DNA of 64,000 bases from Pseudodesulfovibrio thermohalotolerans (GTDB lineage Bacteria > Desulfobacterota > Desulfovibrionia > Desulfovibrionales > Desulfovibrionaceae), in the NCBI RefSeq assembly GCF_021353295.2, contig NZ_CP120635.1:186001-250000 (forward strand), given 5' to 3'. Under the pieces are notes generated by a model. That model was not told the origin of the DNA. It searched no databases and saw only the letters and a program-made list of their open reading frames with translations. This document shows, one piece after another, positions 8,865 to 39,125 of the stretch (position 1 is the first letter of the stretch; every line of letters begins with the position of its first letter). Both the position numbers and the translations under genes were made by a program.

Positions 8865-9249
8865 AATGGGGGTGGGTTTGAGGGGATTTTTTGCGGGATG
8901 GTGCGCCAGCTTGATAAGGCAGGCGCGCCTTTGGCGCGAGAGCCAGTGGGGTCGGCTTTGCCTCCCCAGCTTCCATGCCCTGCGCGGGCGGCGGATCTTT
9001 TTTGCTTGCCCAAAAAAGAACCAAAAAAGGGCCTTTCGCCAGCCCGGCCGCCCGCAGGATCTTCGGCAAGAATCCGATCCGCTCGGGTCGGCTCCACCCG
9101 ATCAAAAGTATAAGTCCTTCTCTGGTGGCCCGCTCCCCACTATCGATAGCACTTTCTTGATCGTCACAGGAGCCGCCGCCTCTTCGCGGTCGGCTTCTAG
9201 GCCGCTGATCCAGGGCTAGTGCTAGTAGGACCTTTAAGGGGGGCGGTCG
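8865..9249. repeat. Repeat module 1, copy A1
   Basis: First unit of the 8.9-10.3 kb array. It is nearly identical to units at 36470, 36843, 37208 and 38035, and to part of 37832-38034. It contains an AT-rich hairpin with a TCTTTTTTG/CAAAAAAGA stem (8996-9019), several GC palindromes and a final 'GATCCAGGGCTA' linker leading into module 2. Open frames crossing it differ between copies and end at differing points, so I do not call genes here. Confidence 0.85.
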
Positions 9250-9602
9250 CCTTTGGGTGTTTTTAGGAGAACGAAGAGCCTGAAATAGGCCCTTCCCGCG
9301 TTGGAAGACATGGCCTCGCTTGCGCAGGAGACGTTCGAAAGCCGGGGCCTAGAGCCTGTCTGAAGCGGCGAAGCGTAGGCCGACTGCGTCTGCCAAAGGC
9401 AGACATCCTGTCGGGCAGCGAAAGCCGCTACAGGCTCTTGGCCACTGCTTTCGGGAGTACGCAGGGCCGAAAAGCGCAGTTTTTGCTTCCTTTTTTCTGC
9501 GCCAGCAAAAAAGGAAGTCGCCGTAAAGGCGAAATAAAACGTAAGGATGACGCGCGCCGTCGAACGCGAAGCGCGCTAATATCCACGCGCTACATCACCT
9601 TG
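9250..9602. repeat. Repeat module 2, copy A2
   Basis: Full-length unit. AGAGCCTGT (9351-9359) pairs with ACAGGCTCT (9430-9438), and AGCGGC (9364-9369) with GCCGCT (9424-9429). These enclose a GTCTGCC-AAA-GGCAGAC hairpin. An 11 bp CTTCCTTTTTT/AAAAAAGGAAG hairpin follows at 9486-9517. Sibling units lie at 9603, 9980, 37583, 38410 and 38763. Confidence 0.85.
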
Positions 9603-9979
9603 CCTTTGGGAGGGTTTTCGTCTCGTTTATGGAAGCTCTTTCCGAGAACGAAGAACCTCAAATAAGCCTTCTCGCGCCAGAAGGCAGAACCTCGCTTGCG
9701 CGGGAGACGTTCGAAAGCCGGGGCCTAGAGCCTGTCTGAAGCGGCGAAGCGTAGGCCGACTGCGTCTGCCAAAGGCAGACATCCTGTCGGGCAGCGAAAG
9801 CCGCTACAGGCTCTTGGCCACTGCTTTCGGGAGTGCGCAGGGCCAAAAAGCGCAGTTTTTGCTTCCTTTTTTCTGCGCCAGCAAAAAAGGAAGTCGCCGT
9901 AAAGGCGAAATAATACGTGATGAAGACGCGCACCGTCGAACGCGAAGCGCGCTAATATTCTCGCGCTACATCATACTCG
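9603..9979. repeat. Repeat module 2, copy A3
   Basis: Tandem copy of the preceding unit, starting at 'CCTTTGGG'. It shows the same nested inverted repeats and poly-T/poly-A hairpin. It differs from its neighbour mainly in the first ~60 bp, where a longer leader is present. Confidence 0.85.
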
Positions 9980-10266
9980 CCTTTGCGAGGGTTTTCGTCT
10001 CGTTTATGGAAGCTCTTTCCGAGAACGAAGAACCTCAAATAAGCCTTCTCGCGCCAGAAGGCAGAAAACCTCGCTTGCGCGGAAGATCATTCGAAAGCCG
10101 TTACAGGCTCTTGGCCACTGCTTTCGGGAGTACGCAGGGCCAAAAAGCGCAGTTTTTGCTTCCTTTTTTCTGCGCCAGCAAAAAAAGAAGTCGCCGTAAA
10201 GGCGAAATAAAGCGTAAGGATGACGCGCACCGTCGAACGCGAAGCGCGGCAACCCCAACCGCGCTA
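9980..10266. repeat. Repeat module 2, copy A4, internally deleted
   Basis: Third tandem copy. It lacks about 83 bp between the two CGAAAGCCG direct repeats that bound the inner hairpin in full copies; a single CGAAAGCCG remains at 10092-10100. The right AT-rich hairpin is kept but has one stem mismatch. Confidence 0.8.
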
Positions 10267-10286
10267 CCCCTCCCCCCCCCAAAAAT

Positions 10287-10337
10287 GCAAAGGAAGGACG
10301 GCCTCCACCATGTAGCGGAAGCCCGCCCTTCCTTTGC
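10287..10337. other. Terminator-like hairpin in the leader before the YkgJ-type gene
   Basis: GCAAAGGAAGG (10287-10297) pairs with CCTTCCTTTGC (10327-10337). On the minus strand the hairpin is followed by a T run. It ends the repeat array. No minus-strand gene feeds it, so its function is unclear. Confidence 0.5.
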
Positions 10338-10418
10338 GTTTCCTCCCCTCAAGTGCTAGGAGGACTCACGCCCGCCGCCGCTCGGCGGACGAAAATGGGA
10401 ACATCCCCGGAGAACAAC

Positions 10419-11225
10419 ATGGAAAGCGACGAGACCAAGGAATTTCTGGACTCTCTTCCTGAACTGGAAGAGGGCAAGACATACTGTTTCAAGTGCTACC
10501 CGGGCATCGAGTGCTTCAACGCGTGCTGCTCGGACCTGGACATGGTTCTGACCCCCTATGACATCCTGCGTATGCGGGCCGCGCTGGGCATGTCGTCCCT
10601 CGACTTCCTGCGCGTCCACGCCGTGGGGCACCATGCGCCGGACACCAATTTCCCCGTGTTCAAGTTCAAGATGCTGGACAACGCCAAACGCTCCTGCGCC
10701 TTCGTCACTCCCGAGGGATGCCGCATTTACGAGGACCGGCCCGGCGCATGTCGCATGTATCCGCTTGGCCGGGCCACCCGGCCCGACGGCAAGGGCGGCG
10801 TGCTGGAACAGTTCTTTATCGTGCGCGAGGACCATTGCAGGGGATTCCTCGAAAAGGACGAATGGACCGGCGAATCCTGGAAACAGGACCAGGGCTTCAA
10901 GGACTACACCGCCTTCAACGACAGGTACATGAACATCCTGTCCCGTACCCGTCAGCTCGGCCATCCCATTTCGGACAAGCTCAGCCAGATGGCCATTCTT
11001 GCCTTCTACAAGATCGACGAATTCCAAGGCTTCATCCAGAAGATGCAGCTTTTCGAACGCGTGGAGGTGGACGAGAAGCGGCAGAAGGCCATTCTCGAAA
11101 ACGAGAACGTGGCCCTGTCCTTCGCCATGGACTGGTTCGAGCTTGTGCTCTTTCAGGATATGACCAAGCTCAAGCCCAAGAACGTGCCCCTGCGTCGCAA
11201 GGGCGTCCGTCCCGGAGGAGAATAA
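10419..11225 (+). CDS. YkgJ-family cysteine-cluster protein
   Basis: This 268-residue soluble protein has the conserved cysteine pattern of the YkgJ / zinc-or-iron-chelating family. Cysteines lie in 'CFKCYPGIECFNACC' near residue 24, followed by 'CAFVTPEGCRIYEDRPGACRMYPLG', shown here only as its key residues C, C and C. The metal and the substrate are unknown. The start at 10419 has GGAGA 6 bp upstream; an earlier ATG at 10395 has no such site. It is followed after 1 bp by rfaE2, so the two are co-transcribed. Confidence 0.8.
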   Translation: MESDETKEFLDSLPELEEGKTYCFKCYPGIECFNACCSDLDMVLTPYDILRMRAALGMSSLDFLRVHAVGHHAPDTNFPVFKFKMLDNAKRSCAFVTPEGCRIYEDRPGACRMYPLGRATRPDGKGGVLEQFFIVREDHCRGFLEKDEWTGESWKQDQGFKDYTAFNDRYMNILSRTRQLGHPISDKLSQMAILAFYKIDEFQGFIQKMQLFERVEVDEKRQKAILENENVALSFAMDWFELVLFQDMTKLKPKNVPLRRKGVRPGGE

Positions 11226-11226
11226 C

Positions 11227-11709
11227 ATGGCCCTGCCCGAAAATGCCAAGCTCATGAGCATCCGGACCTTCCTCAAGCGGAAGGCGGAGTTCGCTCCCGG
11301 CCATCGGCTCGTCTTCACCAACGGGTGCTTCGACGTGCTTCATCCCGGTCACGTGGACCTGCTTCGGCGCGCCCGCGCCCTGGGCGACTCCCTGATCCTC
11401 GGGCTCAACTCCGACGAGTCCGTCAGGATGCTCGGCAAGGGCGACGACCGCCCGCTCAACACGGCCGAGGAGCGCGCCTTCGTGCTCGCCGGTCTGGACT
11501 GCGTGGACTTCATCGTCATCTTCCACGAATCCACTCCGCTGGAACTCATCAAGGCGTGCCGACCGAAGGTCCTGGTCAAGGGCGGCGACTGGCCCGTGGA
11601 CCAGATCGTCGGCGCGGACGTGGTCGCCAAGGCGGGCGGCGAGGTGCACAGCCTGCCGCTGCTTGAGGGATACTCCACCACCGCCTTCCTGGAGAAGGTG
11701 CGGGGATAA
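11227..11709 (+). CDS. rfaE2: D-glycero-beta-D-manno-heptose 1-phosphate adenylyltransferase
   Basis: This 160-residue nucleotidyltransferase transfers AMP to heptose-1-phosphate to make ADP-heptose for the lipopolysaccharide inner core. The signature 'TNGCFDVLHPGH' carries the HxGH nucleotide-binding motif, and 'LVKGGDWPVDQIVGAD' is the typical C-terminal block. It is the stand-alone form, so the kinase half (RfaE1) should lie elsewhere. The ribosome site GGAGGAG overlaps the end of the upstream gene. Confidence 0.9.
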   Translation: MALPENAKLMSIRTFLKRKAEFAPGHRLVFTNGCFDVLHPGHVDLLRRARALGDSLILGLNSDESVRMLGKGDDRPLNTAEERAFVLAGLDCVDFIVIFHESTPLELIKACRPKVLVKGGDWPVDQIVGADVVAKAGGEVHSLPLLEGYSTTAFLEKVRG

Positions 11710-12025
11710 TCGTCCCGGCGTCCTCGGGACGCCGGAGCGTTGCAATTGTTTTTGCGGGACGGTTCGCGCCGTCCCGCCGTGCATTCATGGCGCGTGACGC
11801 GGGGGCTCCGTCCGGGGCTCCCGCTTTCGTTTCGAGGGGGATTCGACCCTACTCGCGGTTTGACTTTTCTCCTTTTCCAATCCAATATAATCAATACGAT
11901 GTATCGTTCCGGACGTTGCTCGTCGATCGGGTGATCGGACGACCTTTTCGCCGTTGGCGAGCCGGGGCCAATGCGTCCGTTCGGCGCGAGCCGCCTGTTT
12001 TGGGCAGGCTCCTTGCCGGGTGTCC
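11710..12025. other. Intergenic region with two hairpins and a possible promoter
   Basis: CCGGCGTCC/GGACGCCGG just after rfaE2 and GCGGGACGG/CCGTCCCGC about 40 bp on are strong stems without an immediate T run. A TATAAT at 11886-11891 lies 20 bp after TTGACT (11860-11865), a wide spacing for a sigma70 promoter. This pair is the best candidate for driving the large kinase gene. Confidence 0.45.
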
Positions 12026-15000
12026 ATGAACCCTATCGCCAGGGGGACCATGCCGCTTAGCCGATTGCTCTGCATTGTCTGCTGTCTGCTCTCTCTTCTC
12101 GTTTCACCGGGAAGGGCTTTGTCCGATGACGCTGTTCCGGCGTCTCCCCAACTCACCGCTCTTGAGCGGCAATGGCTCGACGCGCATCCGGTCGTCCGCC
12201 TCGGCGGCGATCCCGGGTTCGCTCCGTTCGAGTATTTGGACGCCGACGGCAATTATCGCGGTATCGTCATGGAGTATCTGGAACTTCTCGGGAAGATGCT
12301 TGGCGTGAAATTTCAGGTCGAGTCGGGCGGCGAATGGCGGGATACGGTGCGCAAGGCCAAGGCCGGGGACCTGGACGGGCTCGCCTGCGTGGGCGTCAGC
12401 GAGGAGCGGCGGCAGTTTTTCCTTTTCACCCGGCCGTATCTGACCGCTCCGCAGGTGGTTTTTTCCCGCAAGGGAGGCAAGCGTCCCGCTTCCGAGGAGG
12501 AGATGGGCAATCTCCTCGTGGGCGTCCAGGACTCCTCGCTGAATCACATTTGGGTCAGCTCCATGAAGGACAGCTACCCCATTCTCTATCCATCGGCCCA
12601 GGAAGCCTTTCTCGCCCTGAGCGCGGGCGAGATCGACGTGGTGGTGGACAACCTTTCCACGGCTACATGGATCGTCGACCAGTACAATCTGGGCAACGTG
12701 GAAGTGGCCTTTCCCCTGGCCGACGCGCCGCAGGGGCTGGCCATTGGCGTGAGCAAGAATCTGCCCGAGCTGGCCACCATCCTGGACAAGGCGCTCGCGG
12801 CCATTCCGCGCGACGTGGCGCTGGAAATCCAGAATCGGGGACGGCGGGAGGCCGGGGCCGGGAGCGGCCAGGCCCGCGTGGAACTGACGACCGAGGAAGA
12901 GGCGTGGATCGCGGCCCATCCCGAAATAGACATCGCGGTCATGGCCGCCTGGCCGCCGTTGAATTTCGTGGACAACGAAGGTCGTCCCGCCGGTATAGGG
13001 GTGGACGTCATCCGCTTGCTGGCCGAGCGCGTCGGGTTGGATGTGAAGCTTCAGGGCGGCGCGTTCGGCGACAATCTGAACGCGGTGCGGGAAGGACGGC
13101 TGGACGGCCTCATGGATGTGACGCCCAAGCCGGAGCGGGCGGTCTACCTCAACTTCACGGAACCGTATCTCAATATTCCGCACGTCATCATCGGCCGGGC
13201 CGGGGACGACTATTTTTATGACGAGTCCTTGCTCGACGGGAATGTGCTGGCGTTGGAAAAAGGGTTCGGCAATGTGGCCTATTTCCGCGAGCGTCATCCC
13301 CGGGTGAAGATTCTGGAGCTCGAAGACACCAGCGCGTGCCTTGCCGCCGTTTCAACAGGCAGGGCGGACGCCTATGCGGGAAACAGGGCGGTCGCCACCT
13401 ACCTGATCGCCAAGGAACTGCTGACGAATCTACAGGTTCAGGGCAAGCTCAGGAAACCCGGATCGATTCTCTCCATCGGCCTCCGCAAGGACGAGCCGCT
13501 TCTGGTTTCCATTCTCGACAAGGCACTGGATTCGATGACCCCGGCCGACTGGCTGCTTATCCAGAGGCGGTGGACCGGAGCGGACGCGAACTTTCGCAAG
13601 TTCGTTCCGACCGCGGAGCAGGCCAAGTGGCTGGAAAGCCACGGCGACATCAGGGTTGGCGTGGAACCCGGCTGGATGCCTTACTCCGACGTCGCGGGCG
13701 AACGGTTTGAAGGAGTCCTTGCCGAATACGTTTCGGCCCTGTCCGGGAAGTTGGGCGTTTCGATGACCGCCGCCACCGGCATTAGCTGGCAAACGGCCAT
13801 GGACATGGCCGCCAAGGGGCAGCTCGACGTCGTGGCGGGAGTGACGCCCACTCCTGAGCGGCAGCGGTATCTGCGTTTTACCAAGCCTTTTCTTCAGGTC
13901 CCGGTCGTGCTCGTGACCAGGGATGAGGCCTTGTTCATCCGCAGCCTGGACGATCTGCGCGGCAAGCGCGTGGCCGTGGTCCGAGGCCGGGTGACGGAGG
14001 AGTATCTTCGGACGGGACATCCAAAGATATCGGTTCTGCCCCGGGAAACCCTGAAGGAGGCGTTGGGGGCCGTGCGGGAGGGCGACGCGGACGCCATGAT
14101 GGACGATATGGGAGCCATCACCTACGCCATCAAGCTCAACGACATGAAGGGGCTCATCGTCGCCGCGACCACCGAGTACGAGCTGAACCTCGCTTTCGGC
14201 GTGCGCAAGGACTGGCCGGAGCTGGTGAGCATTTTGAACGAGGCGTTGAAGACCATCCCCGAAGCCGAGCGGCGCAGTTTCTTCGACCGCTGGGTGAATG
14301 TGCACGTGGAGACCCAGGTGGACTGGCTGCGGGTATGGCTCATCGTGCTCGGCGTGGCGGCCGTGGGCGGAGCCGTCCTGTGGGCCGTCCTGGCCTGGAA
14401 CCGCAGGCTGGCCCGCGAGGTGGCCGAGCGCACAGCGGCTGAGCGCAAGCTGCAGGCCATGAGCGGGGCGGTGCACGACGCCATGGTCATGATAAACGGC
14501 CAGGCCGAGGTCAAATACTGGAACTTGGCGGCGGAGCAGATGTTCGGCATCACGGCCGAAGAGGCCCTGGGCGGCGATCTGCATGATCTCGTCGGCCCCG
14601 AATGGAGCCGCGAGGCCGCCCGGGAAGGGTTGGCCGGTTTCCGCGAGACCGGACAGGGGGCGGTTGTGGGCAGCCTCCGGGAAATAGTCGCTATCCGGGG
14701 GGACGGCACGGAATTCCCGGCCGAGCTGGCGGTGTCGTCCTTCCGCCTGGACGACGGCTGGTATGCGGTGGGCACCATCCGGGACCTGACCCGGCGCAAG
14801 GAGGCCGAAAGGCAGTTGACCCGGCTCTACAACGCCGTGGAGCAGAGCCCGGTGTCCATCCTCATTACCGACACCTCCGGCAAAATCGAATACGTGAATC
14901 CTTATTTCACCCGGCTTACCGGCTACGCCGCCGAGGAAGTGATCGGCCGCAACCCTCGCATTTTGAAATCCGGCGGGCACGACGCCGAATTCTACGGCAA

Positions 15001-18000
15001 GATGTGGGAGACCATCACTCGCGGCGAGATATGGACCGGCGAGATCGTCAACCGGAAGAAAAACGGCGAATTGCATTGGGAGAACGCCACCATTTCCCCG
15101 CTCAAGGACGAGGATGGAAACATCGCCAGCTTCCTGGCCGTGAAGCAGGACGTCACCGACCGAAAGCTCGCCGAGCAGGCGCTCGCCGAGGCCCAGGAGG
15201 ACAGCCGGCTCATTCTCGAAAGCGTGGGAGAGGGCGTCATGGGAGTGGACGCCGAGGGCCGGATCATCTTCGTGAACCCGACCGGGCTCAAGCTGCTCGG
15301 ATACGGGCAGGACGAGCTCATGGGGGCCGACCTGCACCGGACGATCCATCATTCGCGCCCTGACGGCAGCCCGTACCCGGCGGAACTCTGTCCCGTGCGG
15401 GAAGCCTATTCCCAGGGACGCAATTGCCGGGTGGCCGACGAATGCCTGTGGCGCAAGGACGGCACCGGGTTCGCCGCGGAGTACACCGCCGTGCCCATGC
15501 GGCGGGGCGGCATGACCATCGGGGCGGTCCTGGTCTTCCAGGACATCACGGCGCGCAGGCAGGCTGAAGAGGCGCTCCGCGAGAAGCAGCGTCAGCTTAG
15601 GGCCATTATCGACAACCTGCCGAGCATGGTCGCCCTCAAGGACCGGGAGGGCCGGTATCTGATGGTCAACGAATTCTTCGAGGAGGCCGTCGGCGTCCCG
15701 GTGGAGGCGGTGCTGGGCAAGACCGACGCCGAGAGCCTGCCCCCCGAAGCGGCCGGTCCGCTCATGGCCGTGGACCGGGAGGTCCTGGAGAGCGGACGGA
15801 TGCGCGTTTGCGAGGAGGAGGTGCCGCACCCGGACGGCACGGTTCACACCTATCTGACCACCAAGGTTCCGTTGCAGGACGAGACCGGCGAGGTGGACAA
15901 GCTGGTGGTCCTCGCCACGGACATCACCGGCCGCCGCAGGATGGAGCGGGAGCTCGTCGAAGCCAAGAATCTCGCCGAGGAGGCCACCCGGGCCAAGTCC
16001 GACTTCCTGGCCAACATGTCCCACGAAATCCGCACGCCCATGAACGCCATCCTGGGTATGAGCCACCTCGCCATGCAGACGGAGCTGTCGCCCAAGCAGG
16101 TGGATTATTTAGGCAAGATCGATTCCTCGGCCAAGGCGCTTTTGCGGATCATCAACGATATCCTGGATTTTTCCAAGATTGAGGCGGGCAGACTGGAGGT
16201 CGAGAAAACCGGATTCCATCTGGAGGAGGTGCTCGACAGCCTGGTGAATCTGGTCGGCGTCCCGGCCCAGGAAAAGGGACTGGAGCTGTTGGTCTCCGTG
16301 GCTCCGGGCGTGCACGAGAACCTGGTGGGCGATCCCCTCCGCCTCGGCCAGATTCTCACCAACCTGGCGGGCAACGCCGTCAAGTTCACGGAGAGCGGGG
16401 AAATCCACATCAGTGTGGAGGAAGTGGAATCGTCCGATGACGATGTCCTGCTCAGTTTCGAGGTCCGGGATACCGGCATGGGCATGACCGGCCCGCAGAT
16501 GGAGAAGCTGTTCACGGCGTTTACCCAGGCCGATGTCTCGACCACTCGCAAGTTCGGCGGCACCGGGCTCGGTCTGACCATCTCGAAGCAGCTCGTGGCC
16601 ATGATGGGGGGCGAGATCGGGGTGACGTCGGAAAAGGGCGTGGGATCGACGTTCCGGTTCACGGTGCGCTTCGGCCTGCTCGACAAGCCGCTCAGGCGGT
16701 TCAAGGTCAGGGATTCCCTCAAGGGCATGAAGATTCTGGTGGTCGACGACAACCTGACCTCTCGGGAGATTCTGTCGGGCATTCTCAGGTCCTTCGACTT
16801 CAAGGTGGACACCGTGTCCGGCGCGGCCGAGGCCCTGGATCGGCTGGAGGCGGCCGAACCGCCCTACAGGCTGGTGCTCATGGATTGGCGGATGCCCGGC
16901 ATGGACGGCATCGAGGCGTCCCGGCGGATCAAGGAGAACCGGCATCTCAAGGACACGCCCACGATCATCATGATTACGGCCTACGGACGGGAGGAGGTCA
17001 TGCAGCAGGCGGACAATCTCGGCCTGGAAGGCATCCTGCTCAAGCCGGTCAGCCAGTCCGTGCTGTTCAACACCATCATGGAAGTGTTCGGCGAATCCTT
17101 CCAGGTGGAGTCGCGCGCGAAAAGGGGCGGGGGAATGCTGGCCGAGGCAAGGGAAAAGGCCGGCGGTGCGCGGGTCCTGCTGGCGGAGGACAACTCCGTC
17201 AACCGGCAGGTGGCCACCGAGATACTGGAGCAGGCGGGCCTTTTCGTGTCCGTTGCGGAGAACGGCGGAAAGGCTGTGGAGCTGGCCGGGCGCGAGGATT
17301 TCGACATCATCCTCATGGATATCCAGATGCCCGAGATGGACGGCTTCGAGGCGACCCGTATCATTCGCGAGTCCGCGCGGAACAGCGGCACGCCGATTCT
17401 GGCCATGACCGCTCACGCCATGAGCGGCGACGAGGAGAAGAGCCTCAGGGCGGGAATGGACGGGCACCTGACGAAACCCATCGACGTGGACAAGCTGTAC
17501 GGCGCGCTCATCCGGTGGGTGCGCGGCAAGGGCGGGCCGGAACAGGCCTTGCCCGAAGCTGGCTCGGACGAAAGCGGGGCCGGTCTGCCCGAGAGCCTGC
17601 CGGGCTTCGATCTCGACGCAGGGCTGGCGCGGGTCGGCGGCAACGAGAAATTATACAGGAAATTGCTGCTCGAATTGCGTAATGATTATGTCGGAACCCC
17701 TGGCGAGCTTCGGCAGGCTCTGGCGAACCGCGACTTCCCGGAAGCGTCGCACCTGGCGCACGCTCTCAAGGGTGTTGCCGGAAACCTGGGGGCCGAAAGG
17801 CTTCAGGAGACGGCCAGGGCCGTGGAGGCGGCAGCCACGGCGGGAACGGATTTCACCGCCGAGTTGGACGCCTTTGACGAGGTCTTTGGCGAGGCCGTGC
17901 GGGCTCTCGCCGCGATCCCGGACGCGGGGGACGAGGCGGACAAGGGCGCGCTTCCGGCCTCCTTCGAGATGTTGATCGAGGCCCTTGAGGAGATGCGGCA

Positions 18001-18178: not shown

Positions 18179-18180
18179 AC

Positions 18181-19236: not shown

Positions 19237-19253
19237 TCCGCCCGGCATTTCGC

Positions 19254-19300
19254 AGCCCCCTGCCGCGCCCCATGGGCGAAGCGGGGGGCTTCGTTTTTTT
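19254..19300 (+). terminator. Terminator after the HD-GYP gene
   Basis: AGCCCCC pairs with GGGGGCT around an inner GCCC/GGGC stem. Seven T follow at 19294-19300. It separates the signalling operon from the convergent glycosyltransferase gene. Confidence 0.7.
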
Positions 19301-19356
19301 CGACGGGTTGCCCTGTAAGGCGGATGGCTCCCGGGCTATTTCCGGTCCGCGTAGGC

Positions 19357-21786: not shown

Positions 21787-21834
21787 GGGTCTCTCCGTTG
21801 CGGCTCGGGGCCGCGTGGTAATGCGTTCGGCGGC

Positions 21835-26796: not shown

Positions 26797-26812
26797 AAAG
26801 GGGGGGGACGGA

Positions 26813-27223: not shown

Positions 27224-27302
27224 GCCTTGTCCATCCCTCCCATAAGGCATCCCGATGAGTGCGCCATTGACCGCACCCGTTCCCTGCCTTATTTTCTCCG
27301 CC

Positions 27303-28490: not shown

Positions 28491-29082
28491 TCTTCAAGTC
28501 ATCGCCTCCTGGATCGAGCCGGGCAGCCGCGTTCTTGACCTCGGCTGCCGGACGGGCTCGCTGCTCGCTCACCTCGCCGAAAGGAAATCCATCATCGGCA
28601 CCGGCATCGAGATCGACGAGGACGCCGCGGGCCGCGCCATCGCCAAGGGCCTCTCCGTCATTCACGGCGACATTTACGAGGAAATCGAGGATTATCCGGA
28701 CAACGCCTTCGATTACGTCATCCTCTCCCAGGCCCTCATGCAGGTTCTCGATCCCGAGATTCTCATCCGCGAGATGCTCCGCGTCGGAAAGCTCGGCATC
28801 GTCTCGTTTCCGAATTTCACCCACTACAAGAACCGCTTCCAGATGTTCTTTACCGGACGCGCCCCCATGTCCAAGGAACTTCCCTACGAGTGGTACAACA
28901 CCCCCAATATCCGGGTTATCCCCATCATCGACTTCCGACGTTTCTGCAAGCACCTCGGCGTGCCCATAGTCAAGGAACTCGCCCTTTCCACGCATCACCA
29001 CGACGAACAGGGCAAGGTCATCAACTTCCTTCCCAATCTGTTCGCCACCTTCGGCGTCTTCATGCTCGGCCAGGCCCGATAG
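28477..29082 (+). CDS. metW: Methionine biosynthesis protein MetW
   Basis: This 201-residue class I methyltransferase-like protein is found next to metX and activates or assists homoserine acylation. It has the SAM-binding glycine motif '[16 protein letters not shown]' and, later, '[13 protein letters not shown]' and '[13 protein letters not shown]', typical of MetW. It overlaps metX by 14 bp, so translation is coupled. The downstream 185 bp contains a CCCTTTGAAAAGGG palindrome at 29160-29173 but no clear terminator. Confidence 0.92.
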
Positions 29083-29267
29083 GGGGCGTGGTCGAAGTAG
29101 GGGCCTCGCTGGCCGGGCGTCTTCGACGGCCGGTGCGCTGCCCTGGATCCGCTAAAGAACCCTTTGAAAAGGGGTCTCTGGACTCTTCTGAATTTTATGG
29201 CGCCGTTGCACGGGTGGGGGATGGCGGAAGGTTGGGTTGTTTGCGCGGTCTGAGACCCGTCCGGGGG

Positions 29268-30539: not shown

Positions 30540-30540
30540 G

Positions 30541-31704
30541 TCAGCAGTTCTCGCGGAAGAATTGGAGGCGTTCGCGCATGACGTCCAGTCCGGTCATGGC
30601 GAAGGAGTTCAGGGCGGCGGTGCAGGATGACGGATCGTCGAGCAGGGCATTGATCTTTTCGCGCATGGTTTCGGGCGAGATCTTGTCCCATTCGATGAAT
30701 TCGCAAAGCCCCTGATCCTTGAAGACCTGCGCGCGGATGAGCTGCTCCTGGCGCGGAGTGTCGCGCGGGATGATGAGCGAGGGCTTCTTGAGGGAGAGAA
30801 TTTCGCACATGGTGTTGTAGCCGCCCATGGAGACCACGAGGTCGGACTTGGCCATGCGTTTTTCCATGTTGCGCACGAAGGGTTTGATCTGGACCTTGAG
30901 GGACCGGGCGCGGTCGGCCAGTTCATCGAGCCTTTCGGGGGAGAGGAACGGGCCGGTTATCATGAGGGTCTTGAAATCCACGGAGCCGTTTGTTTCGAGC
31001 ATCTTGAGGTAGGTGTCGAGGACCACGTATCCGTCGCCGCCCCCGCCGATGGTGACGATGACCTGCTTGTGCTTGCGCTTGGCTTTGCGGGTGCTGGGCA
31101 CGAAGCGCGGGATGTAGCCCGTGAATACGGTCTTGGCGGCGATGTCGTCGGGGAAGGCGTATTCGGTGATCGGGTCGTACATGGATTTTGCGCCGTAGAC
31201 CCATATCTCCGAGTAGAGGTCGCGCAGTACCTCGGGGAATTTTTTTCGTTTCCAGTCGGCGCGGGTGGACTCGGCGTCATCGAGGATGTCGCGCAGGCCG
31301 AGGACCACCCGGGAGCAGGGCCGGTGCTTGCGCATCCACTTGAGGGTGGGCAGCACCTCGCGCTTGAGCCCGGTGGGGACCTTGTCCACGATGAGCAGGT
31401 CCGGTTTGAAGCTTTTGGCGGTGGCTGAAATGATTTGGGTGCGGATGGAAATGGCGATCTTGGGGTCGACCTTGATGGAGTGGGGCACGTAGACGACGTT
31501 GGTTTTCTTTATCATCCCGGGGATGCGCACGAAGTCGATGCCCTTCGGCATGGAGTAGCGGCCGACGATGGGGGAGCCGGTGATGATGAGGATGTTCACC
31601 TCCGGTCCGACCAGGTTCCGGGCGATGGCCATTGTGCGGCGGATGTGTCCCAGACCGTAAGTGTCATGGGAGTACATGAGGATGTTGTAGGCTTTTGATT
31701 TCAT
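30541..31704 (-). CDS. MurG/GT28-like predicted glycosyltransferase
   Basis: This 387-residue protein belongs to the COG4671-type predicted glycosyltransferases. The N-terminus 'LMYSHDTYGLGHIRRTMAIA' (key residues SHD, GLGH) is a glycan-binding GT-B start, and 'VTIGGGGDG' and 'VSMGGYNTMCEIL' form the donor site. No membrane segment is seen. It is upstream of, and nearly joined to, the GT4 gene. The neighbouring deacetylase and SPASM genes suggest surface glycan synthesis, but no substrate is known for this branch. Confidence 0.8.
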   Translation of the reverse strand: MKSKAYNILMYSHDTYGLGHIRRTMAIARNLVGPEVNILIITGSPIVGRYSMPKGIDFVRIPGMIKKTNVVYVPHSIKVDPKIAISIRTQIISATAKSFKPDLLIVDKVPTGLKREVLPTLKWMRKHRPCSRVVLGLRDILDDAESTRADWKRKKFPEVLRDLYSEIWVYGAKSMYDPITEYAFPDDIAAKTVFTGYIPRFVPSTRKAKRKHKQVIVTIGGGGDGYVVLDTYLKMLETNGSVDFKTLMITGPFLSPERLDELADRARSLKVQIKPFVRNMEKRMAKSDLVVSMGGYNTMCEILSLKKPSLIIPRDTPRQEQLIRAQVFKDQGLCEFIEWDKISPETMREKINALLDDPSSCTAALNSFAMTGLDVMRERLQFFRENC

Positions 31705-31826
31705 GGGCCTTCGTTCGTCACAACACGCCGAACGGGTCGTTGTTTTCTATAACGCCTTCACCGTATAGGGTTGCAGGGATTATGTCCAGAATCGGTCCAG
31801 CCCGATGATATGTCTTTGAAAACTCG

Positions 31827-32930
31827 TCATGACGCGGCGTTGACATCCAGGCAGATGCCGGGGTCGAAGCCGGGCGCGTCGGGGCGGGCGGCGTTCAGGT
31901 TTTCGGTGTAGAGCCCGTTGCCTGGCCTGGCCTGCGCAGCGCGTTTAAAGTGCCGGACGGCCTCGTCCCTGTCGCCGTTACGCCAGGCCAGTACGCCGAG
32001 GTTGTTCTCTCCGCACGGGTTGCCTGGAGCCGTTTCGTTGGCCCGCAGGAAAGCGGTTTTGGCGGCATCGTTCTCGGCCACCACGGCGAATTGGACGCCT
32101 TCCACCAGAGCCGCCTGGGCGGCGGTCAGCCGAACGTGGTCCAGGCCTCGGCAGGGGCAGCGTTTCTTGGTGCAGGGCGGATATCCCTCGTAGAGGCGTA
32201 CCTCGTCCATGACGTTGCCGAGGACCGTCTTGTCGCCGGGGCATCGGAAGATGGTTCCGTCCGGCTCCATCCGCAGGAGGGTTCGGCCCGCCGAGCAGGG
32301 CAGCCCTTCGAAATTGAAGGCCACCTTTTTGCCCTGTTCCGGGTGGTCGGCGAAGATGGACCGGGCCCGGTTCCCATATGCCTCGGGGTAGCGGCGTCCG
32401 TCGAAGGTGCCCCGGAAGGGGCGCGGGGTGATCTTGATGCCGTGGCCGCCGAAGAATGCGACGTCCGCGTGGAATCGTTTTTCCAGGGTGGGGTGGACCA
32501 CGTAGTTGACGATGATCTCGAAGCCCTTGTCCAGAAGCAGACGGGCGTTTCGGATGAAGGCGTCCACGCCCTTGACCCGCTCGCGCTCTTCGATATGCAG
32601 GGCGACGTAGAGGTTGTGGACCCGTGCGGGATCGACGCGTTCCGCGAACTCGCGCACCTTGGAGGATGCCGACAGGTTGGTGTCGATACCGATGATGTGG
32701 CTCTCGGTCAGGATTTCGCAGACGTCGACGATGCCTGGATAGATGAACGGCTCGCCGCCGGTCAGGCCGACCTTCCAGGTCTTGCCTGTGGCGTCGAGAA
32801 AGTCCTTGATGCGCCGGGCGTCCAAGGTCTCCGTCACCGGGGAGTTGTCGTGTGGGAAGTAACAATATTCACAACGGAAATTGCATTTCCGCGTCATATT
32901 CCAGATGATGGAATTGCTGGGAACGATCAT
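31827..32930 (-). CDS. Radical SAM protein with SPASM and TPR-like C-terminus
   Basis: This 367-residue protein starts with the radical SAM CxxxCxxC signature 'CNFRCEYCYF'. 'VGLTGGEPFIYPG' is the GGE motif binding AdoMet. A SPASM-type set of cysteines follows ('LPCSAGRTLLRMEPDGTIFRCPGD' in short, and 'PPCTKKRCPCRG') for auxiliary Fe-S clusters. The C-terminal ~70 residues carry a TPR-like repeat. Such enzymes modify peptides, cofactors or sugars; no substrate is evident. It is divergent from the deacetylase gene, sharing a ~100 bp control region. An AGAGGA lies upstream of 32930. Confidence 0.83.
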   Translation of the reverse strand: MIVPSNSIIWNMTRKCNFRCEYCYFPHDNSPVTETLDARRIKDFLDATGKTWKVGLTGGEPFIYPGIVDVCEILTESHIIGIDTNLSASSKVREFAERVDPARVHNLYVALHIEERERVKGVDAFIRNARLLLDKGFEIIVNYVVHPTLEKRFHADVAFFGGHGIKITPRPFRGTFDGRRYPEAYGNRARSIFADHPEQGKKVAFNFEGLPCSAGRTLLRMEPDGTIFRCPGDKTVLGNVMDEVRLYEGYPPCTKKRCPCRGLDHVRLTAAQAALVEGVQFAVVAENDAAKTAFLRANETAPGNPCGENNLGVLAWRNGDRDEAVRHFKRAAQARPGNGLYTENLNAARPDAPGFDPGICLDVNAAS

Positions 32931-33029
32931 GGCAATGAGTCCTCTGTGGAAGGTCCTGCCACAATGTCGATAAAAATGCCAGTGGGGGTAGTGGCTTTTA
33001 TTTACAAGCTCTGTTACAACCATCGTCCC

Positions 33030-33809
33030 ATGACAGTTGACTCTATGAACATGCTGCTGCGCGAGCTGGACGCCTGGAAGGACGCGGGTAAGACCGCCGA
33101 GTTCTGGTGGCGCGACGACGACGTGGCCGAACCGACCGTGGCCCTGGACCGTCTCATCGCCCTGAGCGATCGGTTCAGCGTACCCTGCGGCCTGGCCACC
33201 GTTCCGGCCAAGGCTGGCGAACCTTTGCGCAAGAGCGTGTCCCACGCCCACAATCTGTGGGTGCTGCAGCACGGCTTCGCCCATGTGAACCACGCCCCGT
33301 CCGGCGCGGGCGCATGGGAGCTTGGCCATCATCGGCCCAAGTCCGTGATCCTCGACGAACTCAAGCAGGGCATGGTCAAGCTCACCCAACTGTTCAAGAC
33401 CCGGTTCGTGCCCGTTTTGGTGCCGCCGTGGAATCGTATCGATCCCGAACTGCTCCCCTATCTGCCGGTGATGGGTTACCGGGGGCTGTCCGCCAGCTAC
33501 AAGAAGCACCGGCCTGCGCCGCCCGCCGAATTGCGCGTTGCGGACGCCTGCTGCGATGTGCTTCACTGGAAGGACAAGCCGCATGTGCGTTTTGCCGGAA
33601 CGGAAAAGTGCCTGAAATCGTTGGTGGAGCACTTGAAGGACAAGCGCACGGGCGAAATTTCCCCGGCTGAACCCACCTGTTTGCTGACCCACCATATGGT
33701 CATGGACGCCGATGCATGGGCTTTTGTGGAGTCGCTGTTCGAGGCGACCACGGCGCATTCGGCGGCCGAGTGGGTCTCCCCAGCCTCGATTTGGCCTGCC
33801 GGAGCCTGA
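33030..33809 (+). CDS. Polysaccharide-deacetylase-like protein
   Basis: This ~259-residue protein is related to NodB-type deacetylases. It has the 'WWRDDDVAEP' metal-binding Asp cluster, 'HGFAHVNH' (family HxxxH) and 'VLVPPWNRIDPELLPYL', the product-release motif. The start is uncertain: ATG 33030, ATG 33045 or 32964 (with GGAAGG upstream). No signal peptide is seen in the 33030 form, so it may act on a cytoplasmic glycan intermediate. It is divergent from the radical SAM gene and followed by a GNAT gene. Confidence 0.75.
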   Translation: MTVDSMNMLLRELDAWKDAGKTAEFWWRDDDVAEPTVALDRLIALSDRFSVPCGLATVPAKAGEPLRKSVSHAHNLWVLQHGFAHVNHAPSGAGAWELGHHRPKSVILDELKQGMVKLTQLFKTRFVPVLVPPWNRIDPELLPYLPVMGYRGLSASYKKHRPAPPAELRVADACCDVLHWKDKPHVRFAGTEKCLKSLVEHLKDKRTGEISPAEPTCLLTHHMVMDADAWAFVESLFEATTAHSAAEWVSPASIWPAGA

Positions 33810-33925
33810 TTCCGGCCCCGAGGACATTCGGTTTTCGCAGTCCGGCACCTGAACGGTAGGTTTTTGCTTGCACACGGCGGGCGAACGATCTACCGTCCCT
33901 TCGAACCATTTCCCAGAGGACTGCC

Positions 33926-34783
33926 ATGACCGCTACACTGCGCCGGATGATGCCTGAGGATGTCGATGCCGTCTGCACTTTGCTGCACGACCACATGAAC
34001 CCGAATTTCACCCTGAAGCGATGGAAGGCTCTTTTCGCCCCCTCATGGTGCGGGGCGGATCACGATATGGGCATTGTCGCCGAGGACAATGGACGCATTG
34101 TGGGCGTGCATGGGCATGTCTGTTCCTACCGCGTCATCGACGGCCAGCGGGAGCGGTTCCGGAATTTTTCTTCCTGGTACATTCTCAAGGAATACCGCAA
34201 GCAAGGTCTTGGCTCGGCCATGGTGGAAATGGCCACCTCCGACCCCGATGTGACCTGCACGGTCTTTTCCCTATCCCCCAAACGAATCGACTTCTTCAGC
34301 AAGCTGGGCATGAACGTGCTTGAGGAAGAGCGGCTCCTGTGGCGCAAGACCGGCAAGCCCTACGAGAATCTCGAACTGGTCAGCGACCCCGTGAAGATTC
34401 GGCAATGCTGCGACCTGGGCGATATCCGCGTCTTCGACGACCATCGCGAGCTGCCGGTCATTCCGGTTCTGGTCATGACCCGGTGCACCCAGTGCCTGCT
34501 TTTCCTGTCCCGGGCGGTCAAGCACGACGGCGTGGTCTACTACGACGTGCTCTACCGCTCCAATCCGGCCATGTTCACCAAGCGTGTCCAGGATATCGCC
34601 GAGGCCCTGCTGCCGGACGACGAATGCGTGTTGGCTGCGGACCGGAGATTCGTGGACGGCGATGCCGAGGGCGAGGTGGAAGTCATCAAGTGCCCGAGAT
34701 TCTACAAGTCCAAGCGGGTGCAGCCCGAGGACATTGATCTGGCCTATTCCGAGATATCCCTGCTGGGACTCAAGCTCGACTAG
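33926..34783 (+). CDS. GNAT-family N-acetyltransferase
   Basis: This 285-residue protein has the acetyl-CoA-binding motif A as 'EYRKQGLGSAMVEMA' and a longer-than-usual C-terminal extension (residues ~150-285). That extension has a second half of unknown fold and several conserved-looking cysteines ('TRCTQCLLFL'). It sits between the deacetylase and the cupin. AGAGGA is 5 bp before ATG 33926. The substrate is unknown; context suggests sugar or amino-sugar N-acetylation. Confidence 0.78.
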   Translation: MTATLRRMMPEDVDAVCTLLHDHMNPNFTLKRWKALFAPSWCGADHDMGIVAEDNGRIVGVHGHVCSYRVIDGQRERFRNFSSWYILKEYRKQGLGSAMVEMATSDPDVTCTVFSLSPKRIDFFSKLGMNVLEEERLLWRKTGKPYENLELVSDPVKIRQCCDLGDIRVFDDHRELPVIPVLVMTRCTQCLLFLSRAVKHDGVVYYDVLYRSNPAMFTKRVQDIAEALLPDDECVLAADRRFVDGDAEGEVEVIKCPRFYKSKRVQPEDIDLAYSEISLLGLKLD

Positions 34784-34827
34784 CCGCCGCTCTTGCCCTG
34801 AACGGCCCGGCAGGGTACGAACGGGGC

Positions 34828-35406
34828 ATGAGTGAAGAAAAAAGCCATCCCACGGCCCTGGAAGCGCCTTCGGGCGACGTCGTCTCCCTGACCCTCAGCC
34901 TGGTGGGGAAGCTCCTTGCGCGTTCGCGGCAAAACCCGCGCAAGCGGATGCTCCAGAAGCTGCACAAGTCCCTGGACGCTCCGGCGCACCGCATGTTCAA
35001 CGCCATGCAGCCCGGCACCTACATCATGCCGCATAGGCATCTCGAACCGGCCAAGGACGAAACCATTCTGGTCATGGCCGGGTCCATGCTTTTCATTCAA
35101 TTCACTGACGACGGCGAAGTCGCCGACCAGATTCTTCTTCAGCCCGGCACCGAAACCTTCGGGGTGGACGTGGCCCCGCATGTCTATCATACGTTCGTTC
35201 CCCTCAAGCCTGACACCCTGGTCTTCGAATGCAAGACCGGGCCTTACGCCGAAGAGTCGGACAAGAACGTGCCTGACTGGGCGCCGCGGGAAGGGACCCC
35301 GGAAGCCGAGGAGTACCTTCTGGGGCTGCTCAAGAAGCTGGCGGCCAAGGCCAACGCCGAGGCTGAGGCTGTCAAGGCGGAGCGGGGCGACGAGCCCGAT
35401 CAATAG
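34828..35406 (+). CDS. WbuC-family cupin metalloprotein
   Basis: This 192-residue single-domain cupin has 'HRMFNAMQPGTYIMPHRHLEPAKDE', the signature of the WbuC family often placed in O-antigen clusters; the metal residues are the two His of 'PHRHLEP' with the Glu of 'KDE'. 'AGSMLFIQFTDDG' continues the barrel. Its catalytic role is unproven. It lies 44 bp after the GNAT gene, consistent with a surface-glycan module from 29.3 to 35.4 kb. Confidence 0.82.
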   Translation: MSEEKSHPTALEAPSGDVVSLTLSLVGKLLARSRQNPRKRMLQKLHKSLDAPAHRMFNAMQPGTYIMPHRHLEPAKDETILVMAGSMLFIQFTDDGEVADQILLQPGTETFGVDVAPHVYHTFVPLKPDTLVFECKTGPYAEESDKNVPDWAPREGTPEAEEYLLGLLKKLAAKANAEAEAVKAERGDEPDQ

Positions 35407-35479
35407 TGGGTTGCCGGTCTTGCCGCCCGGCACCGAATACAGTACACGGGGTAAGTTTTTCCCGTAAGGAGACTTCCCC

Positions 35480-36391
35480 GTGAACACTCGCGCATTTCGC
35501 GCCGACGTCCTGCTTTTCATCACCGCCGCCATCTGGGGCCTGGCCTTCGTGGCCCAGCGCGTCGGCATGGAGCACGTCGGCCCCCTGACTTTCAACGGCA
35601 TCCGTTTCGCCTTGGGCGCGGTGGCCCTGATTCCTCTCGCCATGACCATGGAGCGCAGGCGCGTTCCCGGAACCGCCGTGGCCGATCGCAAGCGCATGGC
35701 CGTGGGCGGAATATTCCTCGGTCTGGCGTTGTTCATTGGTGCCTCTTTGCAACAGATCGGGCTGGCCGGTCCGCAGTTGGCCGAGTTCGGCCTGGAGGCG
35801 TCCACCGCGGGCAAGGCCGGGTTCATCACCGGTCTGTATGTGGTCCTGGTGCCTATCTTCGGCCTGCTCCTGGCCCAGCGGCCCGGCTGGGGCACCTGGG
35901 TGGGCGCGAGCCTGGCCGTGGTCGGCATGTATCTTCTTTCCGTCTCCGCCGATTTGACCATCTCCTTCGGCGACATGCTCGTTCTCGTGGGTGCGTTTTT
36001 CTGGGCGGGGCACGTTCTGCTCGTGGGCAAGCTTTCGCCCGGCCTGGACGGGGTGGACGCCATCAAGCTGTCCACTATCCAGTTCGCCGCCTGTGCGATT
36101 TTGTCTCTCATCGGGGCGGTCGCCACCGAGGAAATCACCCTTGCGGGCATCTTCGGCGCGGGCCCGGCCATCCTGTACGGCGGCCTCATGTCCGTGGGCG
36201 TGGCCTATACCCTTCAAGTGGTCGCCCAACGCGACGCCCAGCCCGCCCATGCTGCCATTATCCTCAGCCTGGAATCGGTGTTCGCCGCCGTGGGCGGGTG
36301 GATGATGCTCGGCGAGGTGCTCACCACCCGAGGGATGGTTGGTTGCGCTCTCATGCTCGGCGGCATGGTGTTGAGTCAGTTGAAGCCGTAG
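35480..36391 (+). CDS. EamA-family (DMT) membrane transporter
   Basis: This 303-residue protein has ten predicted helices in two EamA repeats ('IWGLAFVAQRVGME' starts the first, 'AFFWAGHVLLVGKLS' the second). Such proteins export or exchange amino acids and metabolites. The start is GTG at 35480, with AAGGAGA 7 bp upstream. It ends before a terminator at 36425-36448 and a repeat array. The substrate is unknown. Confidence 0.85.
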   Translation: MNTRAFRADVLLFITAAIWGLAFVAQRVGMEHVGPLTFNGIRFALGAVALIPLAMTMERRRVPGTAVADRKRMAVGGIFLGLALFIGASLQQIGLAGPQLAEFGLEASTAGKAGFITGLYVVLVPIFGLLLAQRPGWGTWVGASLAVVGMYLLSVSADLTISFGDMLVLVGAFFWAGHVLLVGKLSPGLDGVDAIKLSTIQFAACAILSLIGAVATEEITLAGIFGAGPAILYGGLMSVGVAYTLQVVAQRDAQPAHAAIILSLESVFAAVGGWMMLGEVLTTRGMVGCALMLGGMVLSQLKP

Positions 36392-36424
36392 GCGGCGTCT
36401 TCATCGCCTTTTGGAAAGCGGAAG

Positions 36425-36448
36425 GCCGTCCCTCGGGGCGGCTTTTTT
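36425..36448 (+). terminator. Terminator after EamA gene
   Basis: GCCGTCC (36425-36431) pairs with GGGCGGC (36436-36442) around CTCG, followed by six T. Confidence 0.82.
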
Positions 36449-36469
36449 GTTTGGGACAGGCTGTTTCTT

Positions 36470-36842
36470 TTATTGATGACAGGTTGGTTTAGCGGGAAGG
36501 TGCGCCAGTTTGATAGGGCAGGCGTGCCTTTGGCGCGAGAGCCAGTGGGGGCGGCTTTGCCTTCCCCAGCTTCCATGCCCTCCCGGCGGGGTCCATTTCT
36601 TTTGCTGGCCCAAAAGAAATAGACGAAAGAAAAGGGCCTTGCGCGATCTTGGCCGCCCGCAGGATCTTCAGCAAGAATCCGATCCGCTCGGGTCGGCTCC
36701 ACCCGATCAAAAGTATAGGGCCTTCTCTGGTGTACAGCTCCCCATTTTCGATAGCACTTTCTTGCTCGTAACAGGAGCCGCCGTCCCTTCGCGGTCGGTT
36801 TCTAGGCCGCTGATCCAGGGCTGGGGTTGGGTGATTCTTCGC
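36470..36842. repeat. Repeat module 1, copy B1
   Basis: First unit of the second array. It differs from other module-1 copies in the AT-rich hairpin, but its stem stays paired: ATTTCTTTTG (36595-36604) with CAAAAGAAAT (36611-36620). The rest closely follows copy A1. Confidence 0.82.
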
Positions 36843-37207
36843 AGGAGCTTGGTTGTGGGGGAGGGAGTGTTTTCGCGGGATGGTGCGCCAGCTTGTTGAG
36901 GCTGTGAGAGCCAGTGGGGTCGGCTTCGCCTTCCCCCAGCTTCCATGCCCTGCGCGGGCGGCGGATCTTTTTTGCTTGCCCAAAAAAGAACCAAAAAAGG
37001 GCCTTGCGCCAGCTCGGCCGCCCGCAGGATCTTCGGCGAGAATCCGATCCGCTCGGGTCGGCTCCACCCGATCAAAAGTATAGGGCCTTCTCTGGTGTAA
37101 AGCTCCCCACTATCGATAGCACTTTCTTGATCGTCACAGGAGCCGCCGCCCCTTCGCGGTCGGCTTCTACGCCGCTGATCCAGGGCTGGGGTTGGGTGAT
37201 TCTCCAC
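36843..37207. repeat. Repeat module 1, copy B2
   Basis: Tandem copy, about 365 bp. The typical TCTTTTTTG/CAAAAAAGA hairpin is conserved. It is joined to the next unit by a 'GGTTGGGTGATTC' linker. Confidence 0.82.
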
Positions 37208-37582
37208 AGGAGCTTGGTTGCGGGGGAGGGGGCTTTTTGCGGGATGGTGTGCCAGCTTGTTAGGGCTGTGAGAGCCAGTGTGGAGGCTTCGCCTTCCCCA
37301 GCTTCCATGCCCTGCGCGGGCGGCGGATCTTTTTTGCTTGCCCAAAAAAGAACCAAAAAAGGGCCTTGCGCCAGCTCGGCCGCCCGCAGGATCTTCGGCA
37401 AGAATCCGATCCGCTCGGGTCGGCTCCACCCGATCAAAAGTATAAGTTCTTCTCTGGTGGCCCGCTCTCCACTATCGATAGCACTTCCTCGATTGTCACA
37501 GGAGCCGCCGTCCCTTCGCGGTCGGCTTCTACGCCGCTGATCCAGGGCTAGTGCTAGTAGGACCTTTAAGGGGGGGGCGGTC
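37208..37582. repeat. Repeat module 1, copy B3
   Basis: Tandem copy ending in the 'GGGCTAGTGCTAGTAGGACC' linker that leads into module 2, as at 9207-9230. Confidence 0.82.
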
Positions 37583-38034
37583 GCCTTTGGGTGTTTTTAG
37601 GAGAACGAAGAGCCTGAAATAGGTCCTTCCCGCGTTGGAAGACAGGGCCTCGCTTGCGCGGAAGACATTCGAAAGCCGGGGCCTAGAGCCTGTCTGAAGC
37701 GGCGAAGCGTGGGCCGACTGCGTCTGCCAAAGGCAGACATCCTGTCGGGCAGCGAAAGCCGCTACAGGCTCTTGGCCACTGCTTTCGGGAGCACGCAGGG
37801 CCAAAAAGCGCAGTTTTTGCTTCCTTTTTTCTGCGCCAGCTTGGCCGCCCGCAGGATCTTCGGCAAGAATCCGATCCGCTTGGGTCGGCTCCATCCCAGC
37901 AAAAGTATAGGGCCTTCTCTTGTGTACAGCTCCCCACTCCCGATAGCACTTTCTTGCTCGTCACAGGAGCCGCCGTCCCTTCGTGGTCGGCTTCTAGGCC
38001 GCTGATCCAGGGCTGGGGTTGGGTAATTCCCCAC
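37583..38034. repeat. Hybrid repeat: 5' half of module 2 joined to 3' half of module 1
   Basis: Module 2 runs to the T-rich hairpin arm and then, within TGCGCCAGC (37832-37840), switches into module 1 downstream of its own GCGCCAGC. The poly-A arm of module 2 is missing. The shared 9-mer marks the crossover. Confidence 0.82.
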
Positions 38035-38409
38035 AGGCGTTTGGTTGCGGAGGAGGGGTGTTTTTGCGGGATGGTGCGCCAGCTTGTTAGAGCTGTGAGA
38101 GCCAGTGGGGTCGGCTTCGCCTTCCCCCAGCTTCCATGCCCTGCGCGGGCGGCGGATCTTTTTTGCTTGCCCAAAAAAGAACCAAAAAAGGGCCTTGCGC
38201 CAGCTCGGCCGCCCGCAGGATCTTCGGCGAGAATCCGATCCGCTCGGGTCGGCTCCACCCGATCAAAAGTATAGGGCCTTCTCTGGTGTAAAGCTCCCCA
38301 CTTTCGATAGCACTTTCTTGATCGTCACAGGAGCCGCCGCCCCTTCGCGGTCGGCTTCTACGCCGCTGATCCAGGGCTAGTGCTAGTAGGACCTTTAAGG
38401 GGGGCGGTC
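38035..38409. repeat. Repeat module 1, copy B5
   Basis: Complete unit between the hybrid and module 2. The TCTTTTTTG/CAAAAAAGA hairpin is present. Confidence 0.82.
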
Positions 38410-38762
38410 GCCTTTGGGTGTTTTTAGGAGAACGAAGAGCCTGAAATAGGTTTTCCCGCGTCCGAAAACAGAACCTCGCTTGCGCGGGAGACGTTCGAAA
38501 GCCGGGGCCTAGAGCCTGTCTGAAGCGGCGAAGCGTGGGCCGACTGCGTCTGCCAAAGGCAGACATCCTGTCGGGCAGCGAAAGCCGCTACAGGCTCTTG
38601 GCCACTGCTTTCGGGAGTACGCAGGGCCGAAAAGCGCAGTTTTTGCTTCCTTTTTTCTGCGCCAGCAAAAAAGGAAGTCGCCGTAAAGGCGAAACAAAAC
38701 GTAAGGATAACCTACACCGTCGAACGCGAAGCGCGCTAATATCCACGCGCTACATCACACTT
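38410..38762. repeat. Repeat module 2, copy B6
   Basis: Full-length unit with AGAGCCTGT/ACAGGCTCT, the GTCTGCC hairpin and the CTTCCTTTTTT hairpin, as in copy A2. Confidence 0.82.
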
Positions 38763-39125
38763 GCCTTTGGGAGGGTTTTCATTTCGCTTATGGAAGCTCC
38801 TTCGAGAACGAAGAACCCAAATGAGCCTTCCCGCGTTGGAAGACAGAACCTCGCTTGCGCGGAAGACATTCGAAAGCCGGGGCCTAGAGCCTGTCTGAAG
38901 CGGCGAAGCGTGGGCCGACTGCGTCTGCCAAAGGCAGACATCCTGTCGGGCAGCGAAAGCCGCTACAGGCTCTTGGCCACTGCTTTCGGGAGCACGCAGG
39001 GCCAAAAAGCGCAGTTTTTGCTTCCTTTTTTCTGCGCCAGCAAAAAAGGAAGTCGCCGTAAAGGCGAAACAAAACGTAACGATGACGTGCATCGTCCGCC
39101 GCGAAGCGCGGTGTTATCCCCGCGC
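38763..39125. repeat. Repeat module 2, copy B7
   Basis: Last unit of the array, with the same internal structure. It ends near the 'CCCCGCGCGTGAC' sequence, just before the leader of the next glycosyltransferase. Confidence 0.8.

Follow-up and report, generated by a model that had tools for sequence, protein, structure and literature searches.

Origin-side arrays of two foldable palindromic modules in Pseudodesulfovibrio genomes

We studied two repeat arrays, A and B, in a 64,000-nucleotide stretch of the Pseudodesulfovibrio thermohalotolerans chromosome (the window; G000:C1:186001-250000 of a 3,887,578-base, i.e., 3.89 Mb, contig); coordinates are window positions unless another locus is named. 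Both arrays are built from two palindromic modules, M1 and M2, and very probably belong to a family of resident non-coding elements of the origin side of the chromosome, with M1 first and M2 last. Comparison within the genus showed that such arrays occupy long-lived intergenic sites, are confined to the dnaA side, are homogenised within each genome, retain a conserved capacity to fold and have rearrangement breakpoints located at them. A wider reading, which we propose tentatively and rate slightly below an even chance, is that the arrays are sites of an origin-side chromosomal domain, recognised by a binding factor, and act as recombination portals as well (see below).

Matches to M1 and M2 placed both arrays within tens of bases of the ends given in the initial annotation and bore out the module order described there: 1-2-2-2' in A (8880-10248) and 1-1-1-(2/1 hybrid)-1-2-2 in B (36488-39125) (Table 1). 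Identity to the query copy reached 93% for M1, along ~360 bases (lowest E value apart from the self-match 2e-151), and 97% for M2 (9e-173); a chance origin of the module similarity is excluded. The hybrid unit changes from M2 to M1 at the common sequence TGCGCCAGC, the kind of junction that recombination at short homology would give. Open frames across the arrays had been called inconsistent, and they look accidental: ten of them (102-240 amino acids) had no Pfam match at E 0.1, and the protein-coding reading was rejected on this ground. No Rfam family reached its gathering threshold in the window, and over 36400-39300 the only hit was a sub-threshold match to ryfA at an edge outside the modules (18.2 bits versus 80), so a known RNA was also rejected.

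Table 1 Modules, hairpins and rearranged segment in the window
Feature	Positions	Strand	Identity to module query; remarks
Array A, M1	8880..9228	+	90% to the M1 query over query positions 27-361
Array A, first M2 (query copy)	9236..9610	+	
Array A, second M2	9644..9985	+	93%
Array A, M2 without query positions ~110-183 (middle of the large fold)	10021..10248	+	pieces 10021-10100 and 10092-10248
Segment inverted relative to G007, ends at arrays A and B (26 kb)	10281..36452	.	11841-19253 without counterpart there in G007
Array B, first M1	36488..36822	+	81%
Array B, second M1	36835..37187	+	92%
Array B, third M1 (query copy)	37200..37560	+	
Array B, hybrid	37572..38014	+	M2 start 37572-37840 into M1 end 37832-38014, joined at common TGCGCCAGC
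Array B, fourth complete M1	38027..38389	+	93%
M1 T-run/A-run hairpin	38154..38183	+	arms 38154-38165 and 38172-38183, then CCAAAAAAGG tail
Array B, M2	38397..38771	+	95%
M2 large covarying fold	38496..38613	+	outer arms 38496-38519 and 38590-38613
M2 T-run/A-run hairpin and small TCGCC/GGCGA hairpin	38646..38692	+	38646-38677 and 38678-38692
Array B, last M2	38804..39125	+	91%

A search of the whole genome (G000) with the modules gave 22 listed M1 matches and 26 listed M2 matches, which formed nine arrays at ~195, 222, 350, 434, 468, 3395, 3458, 3531 and 3863 kb. Arrays A and B are the first two and the other seven lie outside the window; one of the 26 M2 matches, weak and 56 bases long (E 1e-4), lies outside the arrays at 407 kb and was not counted as one. 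With an M1-M2 query, blastn matched 33 of 36 genomes of the genus, in some of them by short and weak matches, and none of the 24 genomes searched from other genera. G014 was added by a covariance model of M2 (R1), which raised the positive genomes to 34 of 36. Run over 247 genomes of the order, the model matched 28 of 30 members of the genus and none of the 217 genomes from 50 other genera, a scan with stricter filters in which weak relatives may be lost. In one Desulfovibrionaceae contig (L219), 93 bases resembled M2 at 77% identity. Neither the 72,556 plasmid records nor the 50,697 phage records searched gave a match, and plasmid or phage DNA was rejected as an explanation. In the searches made, then, the modules were neither restricted to this window nor recognisable as relics of a known gene or insertion sequence. 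We found no description of the element in the open-licence literature, among the papers listed and as judged from their titles and the beginnings of their abstracts.

The two-module architecture is highly regular. Sixty-six arrays fetched from nine species were compared with the G000 modules, and all 62 that had both modules carried M1 at the start and M2 at the end. In 57 of these 62 all matches were on one strand, and in the other five only short matches inside M2 were inverted. Internally the modules are arranged in several ways: M1(n)-M2(n) is frequent, the arrays of G007 alternate as M1-M2-M1-M2, and array B includes the hybrid. Amplification at a smaller scale was seen inside an array of G002, where a 67-base tandem repeat runs for 2.3 copies (L075, 1339-1491). 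A separate repeat of ~490-500 bases is common to two array neighbourhoods of G000 (L049:10404-10901 and L053:912-1409) and is also present in two of G007 (L126:10440-10927 and L127:11096-11583).

Conservation of folding was examined in an alignment of the M2 core from the genus (19 rows), with a 42-pair consensus derived from the same alignment. The consensus pairs were formed in 97.1% of cells, as against 37-50% for slid structures; 17 of the 42 pairs had changed on both sides (mean of 7.8 in shuffled alignments), and none of 500 shuffles, which do not keep the relatedness of the rows, reached any of five covariation measures. These compensatory changes strongly support the M2 fold, and folding as DNA would give the same pattern. 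Among strand-neutral pairs, at least two Watson-Crick types were present in 14 of 40 for M1 and 27 of 58 for M2. The suggestion of a structured RNA made in the initial annotation was therefore upheld as regards structure, and the fold may act in RNA or in DNA. The arrays would, on an RNA account, be transcribed tandem units of a multicopy non-coding RNA, kept near the origin for dosage. Besides the covariation, strong in M2 and present to some extent in M1, the fixed M1-to-M2 polarity favours it. On the M1-to-M2 strand G-U was somewhat in excess of A-C in strand-neutral pairs (34:24 in M2 and 29:14 in M1), in counts where a fold computed with G-U allowed is biased towards the strand used. The same counts for RNase P RNA, the control from 22 genus genomes, gave 38:48, with no RNA signature, so that counts of this kind do not discriminate. 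For the counts, G029, G020, G023, G016, G013, G009 and G031 were dropped from a 31-row M2 alignment, one row per genome was then kept, and one of the two M1 rows of G032 was removed. A T-run/A-run hairpin with a CAAAAA-like tail is common to M1 and M2 but lies on opposite strands in the two, no Rfam family matched, and the sites avoid the zone of highest dosage (see below). We consider a multicopy structured RNA unlikely.

The positions of the arrays were referred to the DnaA gene, which is followed by frames matching dnaN, gyrB and gyrA in length only; relatives of this gene were placed in 17 of 17 genomes. Two DnaA-family genes exist in G000 (G000:C1:16630 and 1323521), and its relatives also have a second, distant one. 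We merged by hand 147 listed sites from ten single-contig genomes, including G014 with 26 of its 73 matches listed and its length taken as 3.6 Mb. As many as 141 of the 147 lay within 0.25 genome of dnaA, and six were further away, one of them beyond one third. Taken singly, nine genomes departed from a uniform distribution at p < 3e-4 and G014 at 0.03, among the sites listed. Two more arrays, at ~17 kb in G032 and ~2310 kb in G006, were in the same range and are outside the 147. Pooled GC skew was negative to the left and positive to the right of dnaA in G002, G032, G024 and G034. Next to dnaA itself the arrays were scarce: six listed sites fell within 150 kb, versus 29.0 expected for a uniform distribution over each genome's span, and seven of the ten genomes had no listed site there, each genome alone being weak evidence (p 0.02-0.10). 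This is not what a pure effect of origin dosage predicts, and that explanation was rejected. As to local context, 39 arrays lay between tandem genes, 22 between convergent and two between divergent genes, array A being one of the last two (63 arrays with callable neighbours; the calling was crude and weak in the lower-GC genomes).

Many array sites are old. Arrays with both 3.6-kb flanks in common were found in several species, e.g., L049/L132/L126/L141/L144 and L052/L135/L128/L178/L170. The second of these sites follows an FlgE-like gene, and M1 or M2 sequence was present within 1.5 kb after this gene in five of 14 further genomes of the genus (G032, G006, G024, G025 and G022). None was detected over the same 1.5 kb in G028, G033, G030, G011, G018, G004, G001, G014 and G023, where diverged copies could be missed; a single 16-base match in G030 was not counted. 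The corresponding site in G060, of another genus, had no M1 or M2 sequence. Between sites of one genome, M2 identity was 96.3% in G000 (174 pairs) and 96.4% in G007 (61 pairs), whereas between these two genomes it was 92.4% for non-orthologous sites (237 pairs) and 91.3% for orthologous ones (3 pairs only). For M1 the values were 89.3% within G000 and 94.2% within G007, and between them 83.5% for non-orthologous as well as orthologous sites (6 pairs for the latter). Two copies from one genome resemble each other more closely than do the copies that two species have at the same site, which indicates concerted evolution.

The description of the arrays as a recombination-prone chromosomal element also agreed with breakpoints found at arrays, both elsewhere in G000 and between A and B. 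By their flanks, all seven arrays of G007 match the seven arrays of G000 that lie outside the window, and five of the latter (L050, L051, L053, L054 and L055) have exchanged flank partners relative to G007. For instance, L127 of G007 joins the left flank of L050 to the left flank of L053, and L125 joins the right flanks of L054 and L051. Since the G007 junctions L122, L125 and L127 recur in other species, the G000 arrangement is derived; three exchanges between arrays would be enough to account for the swapped flanks. The segment between A and B is a less simple case. No array is present at either junction of this inversion in G007, where one junction has a short stretch like an array end, 18 identical bases that could be an array remnant. 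Moreover, with A and B in the same orientation, one crossover between them gives no inversion, and a different breakpoint in G002, at window position 59.7 kb, is not at an array. The inverted segment includes 7.4 kb (11841-19253), with a frame of 2074 amino acids (11954-18178), that is absent from the corresponding place in G007.

A mechanism consistent with these results would combine recombination with a chromosomal role. Gene conversion, by recombination between sites, would keep the copies alike, and crossovers between arrays that lie in inverted orientation to either side of the origin would flip the intervening DNA. The palindromic modules may be binding or structural sites for a DNA-acting factor of the origin-side domain; by analogy, such a factor might work in the way of Noc or SlmA, sequence-specific DNA-binding proteins acting on division, through sites that avoid the terminus. 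Several observations weigh against a domain role. No binding factor is known from a search confined to the ParB_N, Y1 and DnaA families (G000 has one ParB_N gene, at 3.07 kb; SlmA was not searched), and position and persistence could be explained by recombination and selection without any cellular role. Two of the 36 genomes of the genus, G011 and G030, had no array by blastn or by the M2 covariance model, so members of the genus can do without the element. Because sites are common to species, the genomes do not count as independent samples of position; several position lists are also incomplete, as mentioned for G014. In G000 the sampled GC skew changes sign nearer to 3.54-3.67 Mb than to dnaA (0.016 Mb), a shift that recent inversions may have caused; its arrays are on the origin side by either reference. 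Finally, no orientation rule holds: the outward orientation of eight of the nine G000 arrays had suggested one, which was rejected when 79 of the 147 listed sites of the ten genomes proved to be outward.

Palindromic tandem DNA could also have been spread and homogenised by recombination as neutral or selfish repeats tolerated at gene ends, with copy number linked to replication, together with inversions about the origin, holding them on the origin side. Concerted evolution and the breakpoints at arrays fit such repeats, and so do the rarity of arrays between divergent genes (2 of 63), the variation between species in presence or absence at one site, and the genomes without the family. They account less readily for confinement in all ten genomes although the array sites differ, for the array-poor zone nearest dnaA, which is the opposite of a dosage effect, for sites common to distant members of the genus, and for the fixed M1-to-M2 polarity and the covariation. 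We regard neutral repeats as possible but doubtful.

Mobility received little support. The initial annotation had raised the possibility of a non-autonomous mobile family and had noted no transposase nearby, and none was present among the flanking frames tested (8, then 6; the window was not scanned whole for transposases). The closest candidates are palindromes of the REP (repetitive extragenic palindromic) or REPIN type, moved by a Y1 (RAYT) transposase; passages in PMC3116915 describe REPINs, too, as extragenic palindromes with tandem clusters and compensatory changes in their hairpins. The Y1_Tnp family (PF01797), however, was absent from 10 of the 16 array-bearing genomes examined and present in the array-less G011 and G030. 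The seven Y1 matches in G000 and G030 were scattered, three of them beyond one third of the genome from dnaA by hand calculation, a small contrast. Array units of ~350 bases and sites common to species are likewise at odds with REP/RAYT mobility. Since the transposase family does not track the arrays, membership in this group is largely refuted and we judge it very improbable.

Returning to the domain-site proposal, a broader version of it draws on the hairpin. A variant taken from M2 of G032 occurs in many phyla: a scan of named genomes gave at least 120 stretches, and Bacteroidota were prominent among the 80 of these that were listed, alongside Burkholderiales, Patescibacteria, Clostridia and others. 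In 100 of the 120 (L182-L301) a CAAAAA tail was no more than 3 bases away on one side; CTAG followed in 37 and a GC hairpin preceded in 18, counts made with no shuffled control. Some of these hairpins form short arrays (four copies in L256). The arrays might be a previously undescribed chromosome-domain element, made of two covarying palindromic modules, that marks the origin half while mostly avoiding the origin itself, that serves a putative factor acting on chromosome layout or segregation, and that is part of a cross-phylum class of T-run/A-run hairpins with CAAAAA; this fuller proposal is speculative and we do not expect it to hold in all its parts. If the arrays are domain sites, the genus offers a natural experiment on the marking of the chromosome's origin half, with twenty or more sites in some species and none detected in two. 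Because sites are common to species while their copies are homogenised, gene conversion and inversions centred on the origin can be measured here in a group that has received little study, and the cross-phylum hairpin provides a way to ask if a much wider class of intergenic elements behaves alike.

Array A is flanked by selD and a gene for a CxxCxxCC protein, and array B by an EamA transporter gene and a weakly glycosyltransferase-like gene, the latter below the Pfam cut-off. The selD gene (7721-8773, negative strand; NCBIfam selD match) is a single frame only if an in-frame TGA near its start (residue 16 in the translation) encodes selenocysteine, and SelD is probably itself a selenoprotein, judging by this frame.

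The arrays share features with three known kinds of chromosomal repeat. Like REP, BIME and REPIN elements, as described in parts of PMC2817692, PMC3116915 and PMC3733652, they are extragenic, palindromic and multicopy, may form tandem clusters and show compensatory hairpin changes. The REP palindromic unit is 20-40 bp long (passages in PMC3733652) and a GT(A/G)G head adjoins it (passages in PMC2817692), whereas the array modules are ~340-375 bases long and have a two-part order; Desulfovibrio and the hairpin strings are absent from the main text of PMC3733652. The arrays also differ from these elements in occurring in a few dozen copies, in having no link to a Y1 transposase and in being confined to the origin side. 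Ribosomal RNA operons are multicopy and homogenised and are a source of inversions around the origin; the arrays resemble them in all three respects, match no known RNA family and occupy far more sites. In G000, a search for 16S rRNA gave no match and one sampled stretch consisted of 2,500 N, so that rRNA may be masked there. With the sites of Noc and SlmA, as presented in parts of PMC4726725, the arrays share an uneven distribution on the chromosome and under-representation near the terminus, as in the 141 of 147 listed sites on the dnaA side. They differ in having few copies next to the origin and no known protein; the Noc and SlmA sites are single short palindromes with a known protein, according to the same parts of that source, whereas the arrays are of kilobase size and consist of foldable modules.

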